Assembly: GCF_011516645.4 (NCBI RefSeq)
Contig: NZ_CP088285.1
Location: forward strand, 6,280,501 to 6,344,500
DNA length: 64,000 nucleotides
Direction of reading: 5' to 3'
From: Bradyrhizobium septentrionale
Lineage (GTDB): Bacteria; Pseudomonadota; Alphaproteobacteria; Rhizobiales; Xanthobacteraceae
Each line of letters starts with the position of its first letter. The stretch's first letter is position 1. The position numbers and the translations under genes were made by a program. Shown in pieces: positions 31,402-36,851 of this stretch. The notes beneath the pieces were generated by a model, which was not told where the DNA came from, made no database searches, and saw only the letters and a list, made by a program, of their open reading frames with translations.

Positions 31402-32732
31402 TGTTCAACCGGCATGATTCCCGACATTTTGGACCGGCATGATCCCCGACAGTTTGGGTTAAGCGGTCTGTTCGCCCGGTTCGCGCAGCCCCTCACGAGG
31501 CGGAGCGAACCGGGTGAACAGGCCGCGGCGGTCGATGAGACCGACGTCGAGGTCGCAGAAGCGGACGACGTGGTCACCGGTATCGAGTTCGGCGATGCCG
31601 ACAAGTTCGTTCACCAGCGCCTGACCGATAAAGACGAACTTGCCTTTCCATTTAATCTCCCCATTGCCGCGAACACGGCGGGCCTGGTGATCGGCGTCAT
31701 ACCAGGGGTCTTGCTCGCGATCCGGCATGGTGCGTTGAGATGCTCGATAGGCGTCCTCCGGCGGCCGTTGGCCCAGCGCTTCGTGAGGACGTTCCTTATT
31801 GTAATGCTCTCGGAAGGCGTCAAAGCGGGCCTGTTGCTCGGACGCATTATCTGCCGGTGGGCTCGATGTTTGCGCCTTCAAGGTGCGATGCATGCGCTCA
31901 TGGCGACCGTTCTCCTGCGGCGAGGCCGGACGGATGAAGTGCGGCGTAATGCCGAGCTTCAGCCACCAGACCGACAATGTGGTGAGACCGCCGGCGCCGC
32001 GCGAGCCGAACGGCGAACCATTGTCGCAGCGGATTGCCCGCGGCAGGCCATGCTCGCGGAAAGCCCTCTCGAAGCGGGGGCGGACGCCCTCGGTCGTCGG
32101 TGCGACGATCTGCAGTTCGATCAGGAAGCGACTGTGGCTGTCAGCCACCGTCAACGGATCAATCCGGCACTGGTCGCGGGTGCGGAACCAACCCTTGAAG
32201 TCCACGCTCCACTCGTCGTTCGGCTCCTGCACCGGCGTGCAGGGACGCCGCTGGTCGAGCGGACGGCGGCGGCGCTTCACCGGCGAGATCAGCCCCGCGC
32301 GCTTGAGAATGCTCCCAATCGTCGACGCCGCCGGCCAATCGATCTCCGGCGCCTGGCGGTCAAGCAGGGCGAGCAGCTTGCGCGGTCCCAGATAGGGAAA
32401 GCGCTGCCGAGCCGCGATCACCTTCTCTGCAATCGCCGCATCGGTCGTTTGTCGGCATTGCTGCGGCGCGTGCGAACGGTCCCTGAACCACTCCGGATCG
32501 CCGCTCTGCTTCCGCTGGCGCCATGCGTAAAACGTGTCGCGGCAGATACCGTGACGGCGGCACAACTCCGACACGCTCCAGTTCCCGCTCTCGTACTCCA
32601 TAAGCATCCGGATACGCTCTTCCATCCGACTGGTCTCTCTGAACGGCATCGTCGGGCCCTCCCGCCGATGCTTCTAGAAACCTGTCGGCAATCATGCCGG
32701 TCTAAACTGTCGGGTATCTATCCGGTCTGTAC
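31402..32732 (-). mobile_element. IS481-family insertion sequence
   Basis: The element is about 1.33 kb with one transposase gene. Imperfect terminal inverted repeats of about 50 bases lie at 31402-31451 and 32682-32732. Each end holds two tandem copies of an ACCGG-(N6)-CCCGACA motif, presumably transposase binding sites. The left end starts with TGT, as expected for IS481 elements; the right tip is degenerate. No certain target duplication is visible. It landed in the loop of a dispersed hairpin repeat. Confidence 0.8.
31459..32649 (-). CDS. IS481-family transposase
   Basis: The protein has 396 residues in a single uninterrupted frame. The N-terminal helix-turn-helix (about 14-50) includes SVSELCRRHGICRDTFYAW. 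The integrase catalytic domain has the DDE residues in WSVDFKGWF, RCDNGSPF and SPQENGRHERMH, followed by YNKERPHEALGQRPP, the usual IS481 signature. A C-terminal domain of about 100 residues follows. GGGAGGG lies 7 bases before the ATG. All catalytic residues are present, so the element may still be active. It does not interrupt a gene but separates feuQ-like from the next operon. Confidence 0.9.
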   Translation of the reverse strand: MPFRETSRMEERIRMLMEYESGNWSVSELCRRHGICRDTFYAWRQRKQSGDPEWFRDRSHAPQQCRQTTDAAIAEKVIAARQRFPYLGPRKLLALLDRQAPEIDWPAASTIGSILKRAGLISPVKRRRRPLDQRRPCTPVQEPNDEWSVDFKGWFRTRDQCRIDPLTVADSHSRFLIELQIVAPTTEGVRPRFERAFREHGLPRAIRCDNGSPFGSRGAGGLTTLSVWWLKLGITPHFIRPASPQENGRHERMHRTLKAQTSSPPADNASEQQARFDAFREHYNKERPHEALGQRPPEDAYRASQRTMPDREQDPWYDADHQARRVRGNGEIKWKGKFVFIGQALVNELVGIAELDTGDHVVRFCDLDVGLIDRRGLFTRFAPPREGLREPGEQTA

Positions 32733-32982: not shown

Positions 32983-34380
32983 ATGAGCCAGAAATCGACC
33001 GAGCGTCTGAGGGATTATCTCGCACAGCTTCCGCCGCAATCGCAGGCGCTGCTGATGCGCGAGCTGGAGCGCGCCGTCGAACGCGGTGACGACGTCACTG
33101 TTGCCAATCTGGTCCTGGAGCAGCTGCGCAAGATCGTGCGCGGGGCCGAGGAAGACGAGCAGATCGAGCCGCGCAGCGACGACCCGGCGCGGCTCCTGTT
33201 CCGGCCGCTCGAACCGTTCCTCGCCGAGACCAATTTCCCGACGCGACCGGGCCAGCTCCGGCGTGCCTCGCTGCTGCCGATCTGGCAGTGGCTGGCTCGT
33301 GAGGGCGCGCCCGAGGCGGCCCGCGAATTCGAGGCGGCGCTGGCCGCAGCCACGGAGAGCGGTCCGATGGAGATCTCCGCGCGCAGGTTCCAGCTGGCTG
33401 CCGCGGAAGCCATTCTGAAGATCGCAGCGCCGGCTCAGGGCGACGACCGCCAGCGCGCGCTGTCGCGCGTCGGTCCGCCCAGCGTCGTCGAGGATTTGCT
33501 GCCGATCGGCCTGGTGCTGCAGGCCCGCGAGGCGCTGGAAACCCTGGGAAGCCGGCTGCCGAGCCAGATCCGCGTGTTCGCCGATTCCCAGATCGCCTCG
33601 GCCACGGAGGCGCTCAAATTGCCGTCGCTGCAGACGCCGCAACTGTTGCCCTTCGCATTGTCGCTGATTGTACAGCGGCTCGCCGCGCCATGGCAGATCA
33701 TCCGCCTCGCCATCAAGATGGCGGCCTCCGACGATGAGTTGCGGGTCGCGGCCACGCCCTACGGCATCGCCGTCACCATCGCGCTGCATGACCTGTCATT
33801 CGTCGCGGCTTGTCTGCGCACCGACATCAAGCGCGGGCATTTCGATTATGTCGGCGAGCAGCTCAAGACCCTGCATGACGGCGTCCGCGGCCTGCGCACC
33901 GAGCTCGATCTGCGCAACGATTCGACCTGGGGCCGCCAGCTCACCTCGGTCCGTGCCGATACCTCCAACGCGCTGCAATCGGAGATCGACAGCGTGCCGG
34001 GCCGGGTCCGCCGCATCCTGCGCCAGCGCGCCGACAAGGATATCGCGGCAGGCGCCAAGATCGACATGTCCGAGGTCGAGGACGCCGCCGCCCTGATCGA
34101 TTTCGTCGCGGTCTGCCGCACCTATGCCAGCGAGCTCGCCATCAACGAGGTGACGCTGCGGACCTTCTCCGACCTGCAACATTATGTCGAGCAATCGACC
34201 GAGGGGCTGGTGCAGTCGCTGCGCGGCGGCGACGCCCGGGTCCGTGCCTTCCGGCAGCAGCAGGTCAAGGCCGCGATCCGCTTCTGCGAGGTGCTGTTCG
34301 GCCACGACTACGCCTCCCTGATGAACCGGGCGGCCGAAAACGCCGTCACCGGCGAGCGGAAGTCGTCCCGCGCGGGGTAG
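32983..34380 (+). CDS. Conserved hypothetical alpha-helical protein
   Basis: The protein has 465 residues and is almost entirely helical, with no signal peptide and no convincing membrane helix. The N-terminus (RLRDYLAQLPPQSQALLMRELERA) and the segment after residue 300 (LKTLHDGVRGLRTELDLRN) are amphipathic and could form coiled coils. I do not recognise a catalytic motif. Its place between the two-component kinase and ccmI is probably ancestral, since composition and codon use match the flanks. Likely cytoplasmic; function unknown. Confidence 0.65.
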   Translation: MSQKSTERLRDYLAQLPPQSQALLMRELERAVERGDDVTVANLVLEQLRKIVRGAEEDEQIEPRSDDPARLLFRPLEPFLAETNFPTRPGQLRRASLLPIWQWLAREGAPEAAREFEAALAAATESGPMEISARRFQLAAAEAILKIAAPAQGDDRQRALSRVGPPSVVEDLLPIGLVLQAREALETLGSRLPSQIRVFADSQIASATEALKLPSLQTPQLLPFALSLIVQRLAAPWQIIRLAIKMAASDDELRVAATPYGIAVTIALHDLSFVAACLRTDIKRGHFDYVGEQLKTLHDGVRGLRTELDLRNDSTWGRQLTSVRADTSNALQSEIDSVPGRVRRILRQRADKDIAAGAKIDMSEVEDAAALIDFVAVCRTYASELAINEVTLRTFSDLQHYVEQSTEGLVQSLRGGDARVRAFRQQQVKAAIRFCEVLFGHDYASLMNRAAENAVTGERKSSRAG

Positions 34381-34418
34381 CGCGACCGCGCAATTCGCGG
34401 GCATTTTCGACGGCAAGA

Positions 34419-34473
34419 ATTACGGTAACAATGCACTAAATCGCCAACGAGCTAAGTGCACTGTCACCGTAAT
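34419..34473. repeat. Left hairpin of the candidate mobile unit
   Basis: Nineteen-base arms (34419-34437 and 34455-34473) pair with two mismatches around a 17-base loop. The right arm, read on the - strand, is ATTACGGTGACAGTGCACT, matching the right-hand repeat. Confidence 0.8.
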
Positions 34474-34492
34474 CCCCATGAGACTTAACTGA

Positions 34493-35290
34493 ATGGACGA
34501 GCACCCCATTTTTGATGTCTTGGCAAACTGGCCAGGCCGAGTGTCGACGCAGCTTGCGTTTGAAGCGCGCGGCTTCTTGATGCCGGCTGCGTGGCAGAAC
34601 AGGATGATCGAGTTCTGCGGAGCGAGCCAAGCGGACTTGCTCAATCGCTATTGGGATGAGGTAGCGATGGAGACGATGCGAGCCGTTGGAAAGGTGAATT
34701 CGGACAACAGGACATTTCTCATTGAGCAGCGATATCGCTCGGCCTTTTTGGATGAGCTGTTCGCCCGCAAAGATTTTCCTCACCCGGATGTTCCGAATGG
34801 ACCTCTTGTCAGATGCCTGCTCGAGCATTTCAGGAAGTACTGGCATGATCTGGAATTTAGAGAGAACGAATTAATCGCCATTAGGAGTTGGAGAAAGCGC
34901 GAAAGCGAGCGTTTAGAGATCCAGACGACAGGATGGACGGGAAAAAAGAGGGGGGTCATTCCTTTCGTCGACCATTTCTGCACCGCGCTCGCATTCAAGC
35001 GTCGCCGGAACCGTTGGCAAAAGAAGTTGGATTGTGGTCTTACCTTCGAGGTTGGACTGGATTTCGGGGGTGATCCCAAACGTGTAGGGGACCCGTTGGT
35101 ATTCTGGATGTCCCACGAGAGCGATCCAGATTGTGCTTTTGAAATGAGAGGTAACAGTCCGTTTGATCGGCTTGTTTATGGGAGTCGATTATACTCGGGG
35201 GGCATGGATGCCAGCGACCATGTTCTTGGAATCCGAGCTTACATTGAACTGTTTGATGTTGTTGCTGCGTCATTTGAGACGATCCGATAA
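34493..35290 (+). CDS. Orphan protein of unknown function in a repeat-flanked unit
   Basis: The protein has 265 residues and I do not recognise it. It is soluble, with many aromatic and charged residues. A basic stretch at residues 135-170 (RSWRKRESERLE, GKKRGV, FKRRRNRWQKK) could bind nucleic acid. HFCTALAFKRRR and LTFEVGLDFGG look like core strand and helix elements. Codon use is less GC-biased than in the genes on either side, pointing to acquisition. No Shine-Dalgarno is obvious. It is not a Y1 (REP-associated) transposase, since no HUH motif is present. Position between inverted hairpins suggests cargo. Confidence 0.6.
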   Translation: MDEHPIFDVLANWPGRVSTQLAFEARGFLMPAAWQNRMIEFCGASQADLLNRYWDEVAMETMRAVGKVNSDNRTFLIEQRYRSAFLDELFARKDFPHPDVPNGPLVRCLLEHFRKYWHDLEFRENELIAIRSWRKRESERLEIQTTGWTGKKRGVIPFVDHFCTALAFKRRRNRWQKKLDCGLTFEVGLDFGGDPKRVGDPLVFWMSHESDPDCAFEMRGNSPFDRLVYGSRLYSGGMDASDHVLGIRAYIELFDVVAASFETIR

Positions 35291-35323
35291 CAAGCAAGCG
35301 TAGCTTGGGGGATTACGGTGACA

Positions 35324-35392
35324 GTGCATTTAATTGCAAAGTCGCGCCCTGAGCGTGCCGGACAATCTTATAGGTCAAGCAATTAAATGCAC
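35324..35392. repeat. Right hairpin of the candidate mobile unit
   Basis: Perfect 14-base arms GTGCATTTAATTGC (35324-35337) and GCAATTAAATGCAC (35379-35392) enclose a 41-base loop. The left arm extends outward into ATTACGGTGACA, while the right arm has lost the matching bases. Confidence 0.8.
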
Positions 35393-35420
35393 CGTCGTTC
35401 GCAAGCATTTTCGACGTCAA

Positions 35421-35744
35421 ACCGACGAGCCCACGGCGGGACGACGAGTGTTTGCACAATTTCGGAATAATGGAAGTGTGGCGCTGAGTTGCCCGACATG
35501 TCAAGTCGTCATTTGGGTGCCGGCGGCCGCCGGCACCTTTGCATGGGGTTGTTTTCGATATTTTGGTCGCGCGCGCCTTCGCCCCGGAGACGCCGTTGCA
35601 ATACCGCCGGAACGGCACCGGAAACCGCCTGATTTCGACTTTCCGCCGATCCAGCAATTGTCAATTGCCGGGCTTGGCGCCGGTAGTGTAAAGCGATTCT
35701 AAGGCGGCTTGCCGGAAGCCGCCGTTCCATCCGGGAACCGCTTG
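35421..35744. other. Gene-free region before ccmI
   Basis: This 324-base stretch follows the candidate mobile unit. A frame open to 35702 exists, but it starts inside the right hairpin and has no domain or ribosome binding site. The segment around 35470-35560 looks like degraded dispersed sequence. A GGCGGCTTGCCGGAAGCCGCC hairpin at about 35703-35723 lies just upstream of ccmI. Confidence 0.5.
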
Positions 35745-36851
35745 ATGACGCTGTGGTTTGTGTTCGCGCTGATGACGGTCGCGGCGATCTTTGCCGTGCT
35801 TTGGCCGCTCAGCCGGCGCGGGCGGACGGATACCGGCGGCAGCGAGGTCGTGGTCTACCGGGACCAACTCGCCGAAATCGACCGCGACATGGCCGCCGGC
35901 ATCATCGGCGCCGCCGAGGCCGATGCCGCGCGGATCGAGATCAGCCGCCGGCTGCTGGCCGCCGCCGACCAGAGCGGACGTGAAACCCCGGTGCAGGGCA
36001 GTCTCACGCTGCGGCGCGCCGCCGCGATCGTGGCCCTGGTCGGTTTGCCGGTCATTGCCTCCAGCTTCTATCTCGCGCTCGGCTCGCCGCGGCTTGGCGA
36101 CTTCCCGCTCGCCGAACGCAGCCGGGTCGCCGACGCCAACCAGCCGCTCGCCAATCTGGTGGCGCAGGTCGAGGCCCATCTGGAGAAGAACCCGACCGAC
36201 GGCCGCGGCTGGACGGTGCTGGCGCCGGTGCTGTCGCGCCTCGGCCGCTACGATGACGCCGTCCGCGCCTATCGCAATGCCATTACCTACGCCGGCGACA
36301 GCGCCGATCGCCGCGCCGATCTCGGCGAGGCAATGATCGGGACCGCCGGCGGCGTCGTCACCGCGGAAGCCAAGGCGGAGTTCGAGCGCGCGATCGCGCT
36401 GAATGGCGACGATGCCAAGGCCAACTACTTCCTCGGTCTCGCCGCCGAGCAGGACGGCCGCAAGGCTGATGCCGCGGCGCTCTGGCAGAAGATGCTGGCG
36501 AAGGCGCCGTCTGACGCGCCGTGGCGGCCGCTGGTGCAGGCCGCGCTGGTGCGCGTCGGCGGCGTCAGCGCACCCGCACTGCCCGACGGTGCGATGGCCG
36601 CGGCCAAGGATATGAGCGAGGCCGATCGCGGCACCATGATCCAGGGTATGGTCGATCGGCTGGCGACGCGGCTCAAGACGAATGGCGACGATGTCGAGGG
36701 CTGGCTGCGGCTGGTCCGCGCCTATCTCGTGATGGGGGAGCGCGACAAGGCGATGAGCGCGCTCGCGGATGCCCGTCAGGCGGTGGCCAATGATGCCGAT
36801 CGGTTGCGTCAGCTCAATGAGGGGCTGAAGAATCTCGGGCTGGATGGATAG
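35745..36851 (+). CDS. ccmI: Cytochrome c maturation protein CcmI (CycH)
   Basis: CcmI holds apocytochrome c for haem ligation by CcmF/CcmH. The protein has 368 residues: an N-terminal membrane helix ([21 protein letters not shown]), the conserved [36 protein letters not shown] cytoplasmic leucine-zipper-like loop, a second helix near residue 100 ([21 protein letters not shown]), then periplasmic TPR repeats ([26 protein letters not shown] and others). The ATG at 35745 begins the first helix; upstream frame is not conserved in character. First gene of ccmI-ccmE-ccmF-ccmH, named cycHJKL in rhizobia. Confidence 0.93.

Follow-up and report, generated by a model that had tools for sequence, protein, structure and literature searches.

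In mobile insertion cassettes (MICs), a gene other than a transposase lies between transposase ends, and integron arrays consist of single genes parted by imperfect hairpins. MICs of Bacillus cereus are named in PMC6542083. TIRYT/TIRtron elements consist of a RAYT-like Y1 transposase with long flanking terminal inverted repeats (TIRs), and the TIRs are also scattered as singles, dimers, and clusters, as stated in the text of Di Nocera et al. (2013; PMC3733652), which also names the Bradyrhizobium REP families GTAG-3, GTAG-14, CGTC-1, and CGTC-3. TnpAY1 subclass 2.1 is probably the same as TIRYT according to Quentin et al. (2018; PMC6006769), who found that its members lack neighbouring REP-like repeats. 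In the REPIN-RAYT system, inverted doublets form hairpins and a transposase acting in trans is the proposed mover (Bertels and Rainey, 2011; PMC3116915).

The locus compared here with these systems lies in a 64,000-nt stretch of the Bradyrhizobium septentrionale chromosome (the window, i.e., the whole stretch of DNA that was analysed), within a genome of 10.4 Mb. Its ingredients are known, while their arrangement is unusual: a gene cargo lies between TIR hairpins at a hot spot.

Gene, hairpins and repeats of the window locus

The features of the locus, by window position, were as follows:

32983..34380, + strand: conserved 465-aa gene, 5' of the hot spot, without a Pfam or NCBIfam match
34394..34416, + strand: left outer direct repeat, 23 nt, at the position of the single copy of empty alleles L083 and L085
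34419..34473, no strand: left hairpin, a TIR pair (34419-34435, + strand, two mismatches; 34457-34473, - strand, exact)
34493..35290, + strand: 265-codon orphan gene (the cargo); almost all named members of its family come from Bradyrhizobium
35308..35396, no strand: right hairpin unit, with an inward TIR (35312-35328, + strand, exact)
35320-35337 and 35379-35396: arms of the right hairpin, the outer arm truncated
35398..35420, + strand: right outer direct repeat, 23 nt; the single copy of nine other alleles lies here, 60-65 nt 5' of the dispersed repeat
35456..35580, + strand: ordinary member of a dispersed repeat, the landmark in the allele comparison
35709..36851, + strand: gene 3' of the hot spot, the right anchor (ccmI is a name from the preliminary description only)

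The preliminary description had reported two nested repeat systems around an unrecognised gene, and both systems were recovered. The inner repeats (34453-34477 and 35308-35332) are inverted, 25 nt long and identical at 24/25 positions; the outer repeats (34394-34416 and 35398-35420) are direct, 23 nt long and identical at 20/23 positions. The core of the inner repeat is ATTACGGTGACAGTGCA, which occurred at three window sites with up to three mismatches (34419 +, 34457 -, and 35312 +), where shuffles led to an expectation of 0.04. The best 23-mer identity between the left and right flanks was 20, a value reached by 0 of 200 first-order Markov resamplings (maximum 17). Each inner repeat lies within a hairpin, as had been described: single-stranded folding gave z = -6.4 for 34415-34478 (0 of 200 shuffles folded as well) and z = -2.5 for 35306-35402 (2 of 200). 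The left hairpin in its own right consists of a pair of TIRs, so that the gene has a hairpin on either side (hairpin - gene - hairpin). The enclosed DNA is also AT-richer, as had been said, with a GC content of 51% between the repeats versus 68% and 70% in the flanking genes.

The repeats are sparse, in agreement with the preliminary description, for which thousands of scattered copies would have been adverse. Genome-wide, the 23-mer (up to three mismatches) was found only as the two window copies, while the core had nine sites. The 93-nt right hairpin unit gave matches longer than 70 nt at the hot spot only, in 5/146 genomes. Of the dispersed repeat at 35456-35580, the 3' part had 34 matches in the genome (up to three mismatches). 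A minus-strand transposase gene with rve domains (PF13683 and PF00665) lies 5' of the conserved 465-aa gene, at 31459-32649.

The enclosed gene remained unrecognised: searches of Pfam, PADLOC, NCBIfam, and PHROGs gave no match for the 265-aa protein, and its confidently predicted structure (pLDDT 91.5) had no significant match among known folds. Profile searches likewise returned no Y1/HUH match, consistent with the transposase motif having been reported absent. The window locus is therefore not a TIRtron, having no RAYT-like Y1 gene between its TIRs, whereas the element at L010 4213-4966, elsewhere in the same genome, has one.

The terminal inverted repeat and its Y1 transposase

A Y1/HUH transposase of the RAYT/TIRYT kind has the core ATTACGGTGACAGTGCA as its TIR. 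Seven of the nine core sites (up to two mismatches, whole genome) lay in three places: the window locus, position 4859304 with a single copy, and a cluster spanning 6783212-6784901. This cluster contained a Y1 transposase gene (PF01797) between two exact inverted cores, 468 kb from the window locus and the sole Y1_Tnp match found in the genome. Two window TIRs and both ends of this transposase element (L010 4213-4966) have the core without a mismatch, and the likeness of the hairpins to the element ends extends over 22-29 nt. The gene itself is frame-shifted, diverging from the frame of intact relatives after about residue 162.

Transposase relatives (E <= 1e-40) were present in 25/146 genus genomes. 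The 32 matches listed formed 30 loci, of which 26 were examined, with four fragment hits left out. The core (up to three mismatches) was inverted on both sides of the transposase in 20/26 loci and present on at least one side in 24/26; the two loci without it were a fragment that contains a stop and a relative at 42%. TIR matches were found in 24/25 transposase carriers versus 57/121 non-carriers (Fisher 2.8e-6; apparently the same 146 genomes were drawn for both counts), a link that is partly by construction because the ends of the transposase itself count as matches. The element is approximately 735-760 bp long, homology between its copies ends at the TIRs, and the ATTAC ends of its TIRs face outward. 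Translations showed the motifs NHVH, WQ, and YV[AS]LNP. Three intact genes scored above the Y1_Tnp cut-off, while REP_Tyr_transpos matched with E 1.3e-21 and 77 bits, below its cut-off of 80. The exact core was found in 32/100 relatives spread over two genera and in 8/299 genomes of a phylum sample, namely five Bradyrhizobium and three from another genus of the order.

In keeping with a TIR family of the TIRYT kind, the repeat is identical to the transposase ends and the transposase has an HUH motif and a catalytic tyrosine. A RAYT-like Y1 transposase flanked by long TIRs, with further TIRs beyond the element, occurs here as in the text of PMC3733652. By our own comparison with the consensus printed in that text (GGGGWSAS), GGTGACAG of our TIR fits at 7/8 positions; this text consensus was all that was compared, and our TIR may equal one of the TIRs listed there. 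The GTAG-3, GTAG-14, CGTC-1, and CGTC-3 families enter the comparison by name only. Here a passenger gene lies between TIR dimers, whereas the text of PMC3733652 describes none. The same text already covers this kind of element, a TIR-associated Y1 transposase whose TIRs also form dimers and clusters.

On a motif comparison only, the transposase resembles TnpAY1 subclass 2.1 (NHVH, WQ, Y-V-[AS]-L-N-P, and a length near the approximately 225 residues of the table row in PMC6006769), but with a TIR on both sides in 20 of 26 loci. The short inverted doublets that form hairpins recall the REPIN-RAYT system of PMC3116915; the differences from that description are the small copy number here (9 sites at up to two mismatches) and the genes between doublets.

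Neighbours of the other TIR places in the genome were recorded. The transposase element has an Imm1 immunity gene (PF14430, E 1.1e-9) on one side and a DUF416 gene on the other (L010 3710-6050; G000:C2:6782709-6785049), with a third TIR beyond the element. The lone TIR (L009 4305; G000:C2:4859304) adjoins a duplicated pre-toxin-like stretch, and an ORF near it had a weak match to a CdiA-CT RNase A-like domain (PF18431, E 0.0058, below cut-off).

Filled and empty alleles of the hot spot

The gap between the two conserved Bradyrhizobium genes is a hot spot of exchangeable accessory genes, and the presence of cargo there is tied to TIR hairpins. The end of the upstream gene (33500-34393) was matched in 256/257 genus genomes, and the 30 best-matching loci out of these 256 genomes were fetched as alleles. 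The gap ranged from 117 bp to more than 5 kb across the 30 alleles, and filled gaps contained unrelated genes from allele to allele: the 265-aa gene (L081 and L082), a 231-aa gene (L084 and L101), a SUKH-like gene (L089; PF14567, E 1.5e-4, below its cut-off), and a DUF6471 gene (L094). The remaining cargo genes had no family above cut-off. The 231-aa cargo was found at the hot spot only, in 2/257 genomes, apart from one weak 25% match elsewhere. Relatives thus do not carry an ordinary conserved locus, which would have spoken against the preliminary description; the 265-aa gene is accessory and empty alleles exist. A tree was built from the upstream gene with 29 rows, all except L103. Neither L081 and L082 nor L084 and L101 came out as sisters, and the distribution of cargo departs from this tree, although 10 of its 26 inner branches are weak.

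Among the 22 closest alleles (L081-L101 and L103), a TIR-like 13-mer (up to two mismatches) was present in 12/14 filled alleles versus 1/8 empty or short alleles (Fisher 0.0015), while mononucleotide shuffles gave 0.7 filled loci with such a 13-mer. None of the eight more distant alleles, two of them filled, had the 13-mer; including them, the counts became 12/16 filled versus 1/14 empty or short alleles (Fisher 2.3e-4). Alleles and locus pairs in these statistics are not independent. The filled alleles without a TIR were L087 (cut by a contig end), L103, L104, and L107; the short allele with a TIR was L095.

The right TIR lay 143-158 nt 5' of the landmark repeat in eight alleles with six different contents. 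Left TIRs were found in ten alleles, all within 90 nt of the stop codon, and TIRs occupied both edges of the cargo in five alleles: L081, L082, L084, L098, and L101. The ATTAC end pointed toward the cargo in 8/8 right TIRs and 9/10 left TIRs (the exception was L086), which is the reverse of the facing in the transposase element; the left outer arm was also retained in L081 and L084. This reversal puts the cargo between two TIR doublets or their remains, and not inside one.

The 23-mer is a locus-specific flank. It occurred once (up to six edits), 60-65 nt 5' of the landmark repeat, in nine alleles (L083, L084, L089, and L096-L101), and once in L085, 89 nt from the landmark repeat. One match was found in L093, 220 nt from the landmark repeat, and two poor matches (six edits) lay elsewhere in the gap of L090. 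Only L081 and L082, which both carry the 265-aa gene, had two good copies, one per edge. The empty alleles L083, L085, and L097 had one copy each, so that empty sites retaining one direct repeat, anticipated in the preliminary description, do exist in relatives; in L083 and L085 the distance from copy to stop codon equals that of the left copy in the window. As the 23-mer is single in empty alleles and double with the 265-aa gene, the doubled copy marks insertion into an empty allele. The three differences between the copies and the truncated right arm indicate that the doubled 23-mer is not a fresh target duplication. Most likely, an allele bringing its own right flank entered an empty allele resembling L083 or L085.

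Origin of the hairpin-edged cargo

The reading that we consider probable is that of an exchangeable hot spot whose cargo is edged by miniature TIRYT-family hairpins and exchanged via the conserved flanks. On this reading, two conserved chromosomal genes of a Bradyrhizobium clade enclose a hot spot for exchangeable accessory genes, and the edge hairpins would belong to the element of a RAYT/TIRYT-type Y1 transposase, either as miniature, non-autonomous members or as its remnants. A transposase acting in trans would have set the hairpins at the edges of the exchangeable site, hairpins and cargo would be gained and lost jointly, and cargo would cross between species mainly by homologous recombination in the conserved flanking genes. 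The hot spot, the link between TIR and transposase, the link between cargo and TIR, and the empty alleles rest on computed results.

In total, 122 proteins matched the 265-aa protein at E <= 1e-3; many were metagenomic, and the source names shown were Bradyrhizobium. The family was present in 21/265 genus genomes. Fourteen of its 16 loci in named genomes were from Bradyrhizobium; one was from a bin labelled Armatimonadetes (its gene region has a match in a Bradyrhizobium bin), and the last, from Reyranella, is a distant relative (32%). Among the loci compared, the site was common to Bradyrhizobium sp. RD5-C2 only. At many other sites the gene has a leader and trailer of its own, which suggests that the family has its own unit boundaries. 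In L045, L046, L067-L073, and L079, the common leader ends GC[GA]GTGAGAT just before the start codon, and many of these loci also have a common trailer.

A TIR-like 13-mer was found within 350 nt of the 265-aa gene in 7/21 distinct loci (23 loci were entered, two of them duplicates); these seven include the hot spot and a locus where the match falls in the leader of the gene itself. At 13 sites other than the hot spot, non-coding DNA near the gene contained 0.75 versus 0.06 TIR-like matches per kb (two hits at two sites versus one hit; Fisher 0.047), and all DNA contained 0.56 versus 0.05 per kb (5 versus 8 hits; Fisher 4e-4).

Across 90 loci, transposase excluded, 68/588 homology breaks lay within 25 nt of a TIR versus 21.7 expected (a count reached by 0/1000 shifted controls); these loci had been picked for holding TIRs, and locus pairs are not independent. 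Non-collinear breaks accounted for 41/397 versus 14.8 expected, and collinear breaks, the type given by simple hairpin insertion, for 24/167 versus 6.2 expected. GC content was below that of the locus in 40 of the 52 stretches of 250-2500 nt that separate TIR clusters. On the IMG/VR contig L136, a SUKH gene (PF09346, E 6.7e-13) lay between TIR doublets of 100 and 99 nt. The same cassette had no doublet beside it in L119, which indicates that hairpins and genes can move separately, and the side on which the neighbouring cassette has its doublet differs between L119 and L142. Doublets thus insert by themselves, and they also sit at gene-order breaks.

Several TIR doublets spaced by one or a few genes gave L147, L148, and L183 the look of a cassette array. 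L183 (G038:C58, 5294 nt) contained seven TIRs, and its ends share approximately 95 nt in direct orientation; either this contig is a circle or a repeat bounds it in the assembly.

Independent events are a possible origin, although one on the unlikely side: the gene would have arrived by illegitimate or homologous recombination, with miniature TIR elements inserting on either side in a tolerant accessory spacer. The many sites of the 265-aa family, with a TIR-like 13-mer near a third of them only, agree with this, as do TIR dimers that adjoin other genes singly and the cassette neighbouring the SUKH gene, whose doublet lies on one side in L119 and on the other in L142. Against it stands the tie between TIRs and filled alleles in the closest set, and independent insertions would not give the right TIR its near-fixed distance from the landmark under six contents.

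The preliminary description had suggested a cargo gene moved by a transposase located elsewhere. The repeat does belong to a distant Y1/HUH transposase; trans-mobilisation of the gene, however, gained no support, and its direct co-transposition by the transposase seems unlikely. As a mobile insertion cassette, hairpin - gene - hairpin would be a non-autonomous transposon moved by TIRYT in trans and the 23-mers would be a target duplication. The single 23-mer of empty alleles, the five alleles with TIRs on both cargo edges, the SUKH gene of L136 between two dimers and, weakly, the excess of TIR-like sequence at the 13 sites would suit such a cassette. A plain mobile cassette is opposed by the reversed TIRs, the decayed or missing outer arms, and family members that are TIR-free at most other sites. 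In addition, the 23-mers differ at 3/23 positions, no two sites were found at which the 265-aa gene has intact TIRs, and the only Y1_Tnp gene found in the genome is frame-shifted. We know of no target duplications made by Y1 enzymes. This origin is accordingly rated as distinctly unlikely. The likeness to MICs is that transposase ends surround a non-transposase gene, but the ends are not intact and in parent orientation: the TIRs are reversed relative to the transposase element, and the outer ends are decayed, the right outer arm being truncated.

That the hairpins are terminators or insulators selected at the edges of acquired genes, with a secondary likeness to transposase ends, is highly improbable: stable single-strand folds near gene ends agree with it, while the 22-29 nt of likeness to the element ends and the patchy presence of hairpins among close relatives do not.

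The preferred reading, an exchangeable hot spot edged by miniature TIRYT-family hairpins, leaves cargo movement to recombination in the flanks. A broader proposal, in our view quite improbable, is that Y1 (RAYT/TIRYT) hairpins bound the cassette exchange of single orphan or immunity-type genes in Bradyrhizobium and related DNA. Acting in trans, the transposase would then swap genes among hairpin sites that stay fixed, so that a single-strand enzyme would be used in the manner of an integron; we hold this to be equally doubtful. By analogy, integrons also have hairpin-separated single genes, and neighbours are shuffled in some of the loci here; the hairpins here differ in being the TIRs of a Y1 transposase.

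Altogether, the results suggest that these hairpins mark a site of gene exchange in Bradyrhizobium. The hot spot offers a natural series of filled and empty alleles, and if TIR hairpins do edge sites of gene swapping, RAYT/TIRYT proteins would be tied to gene gain, beyond their own repeats.
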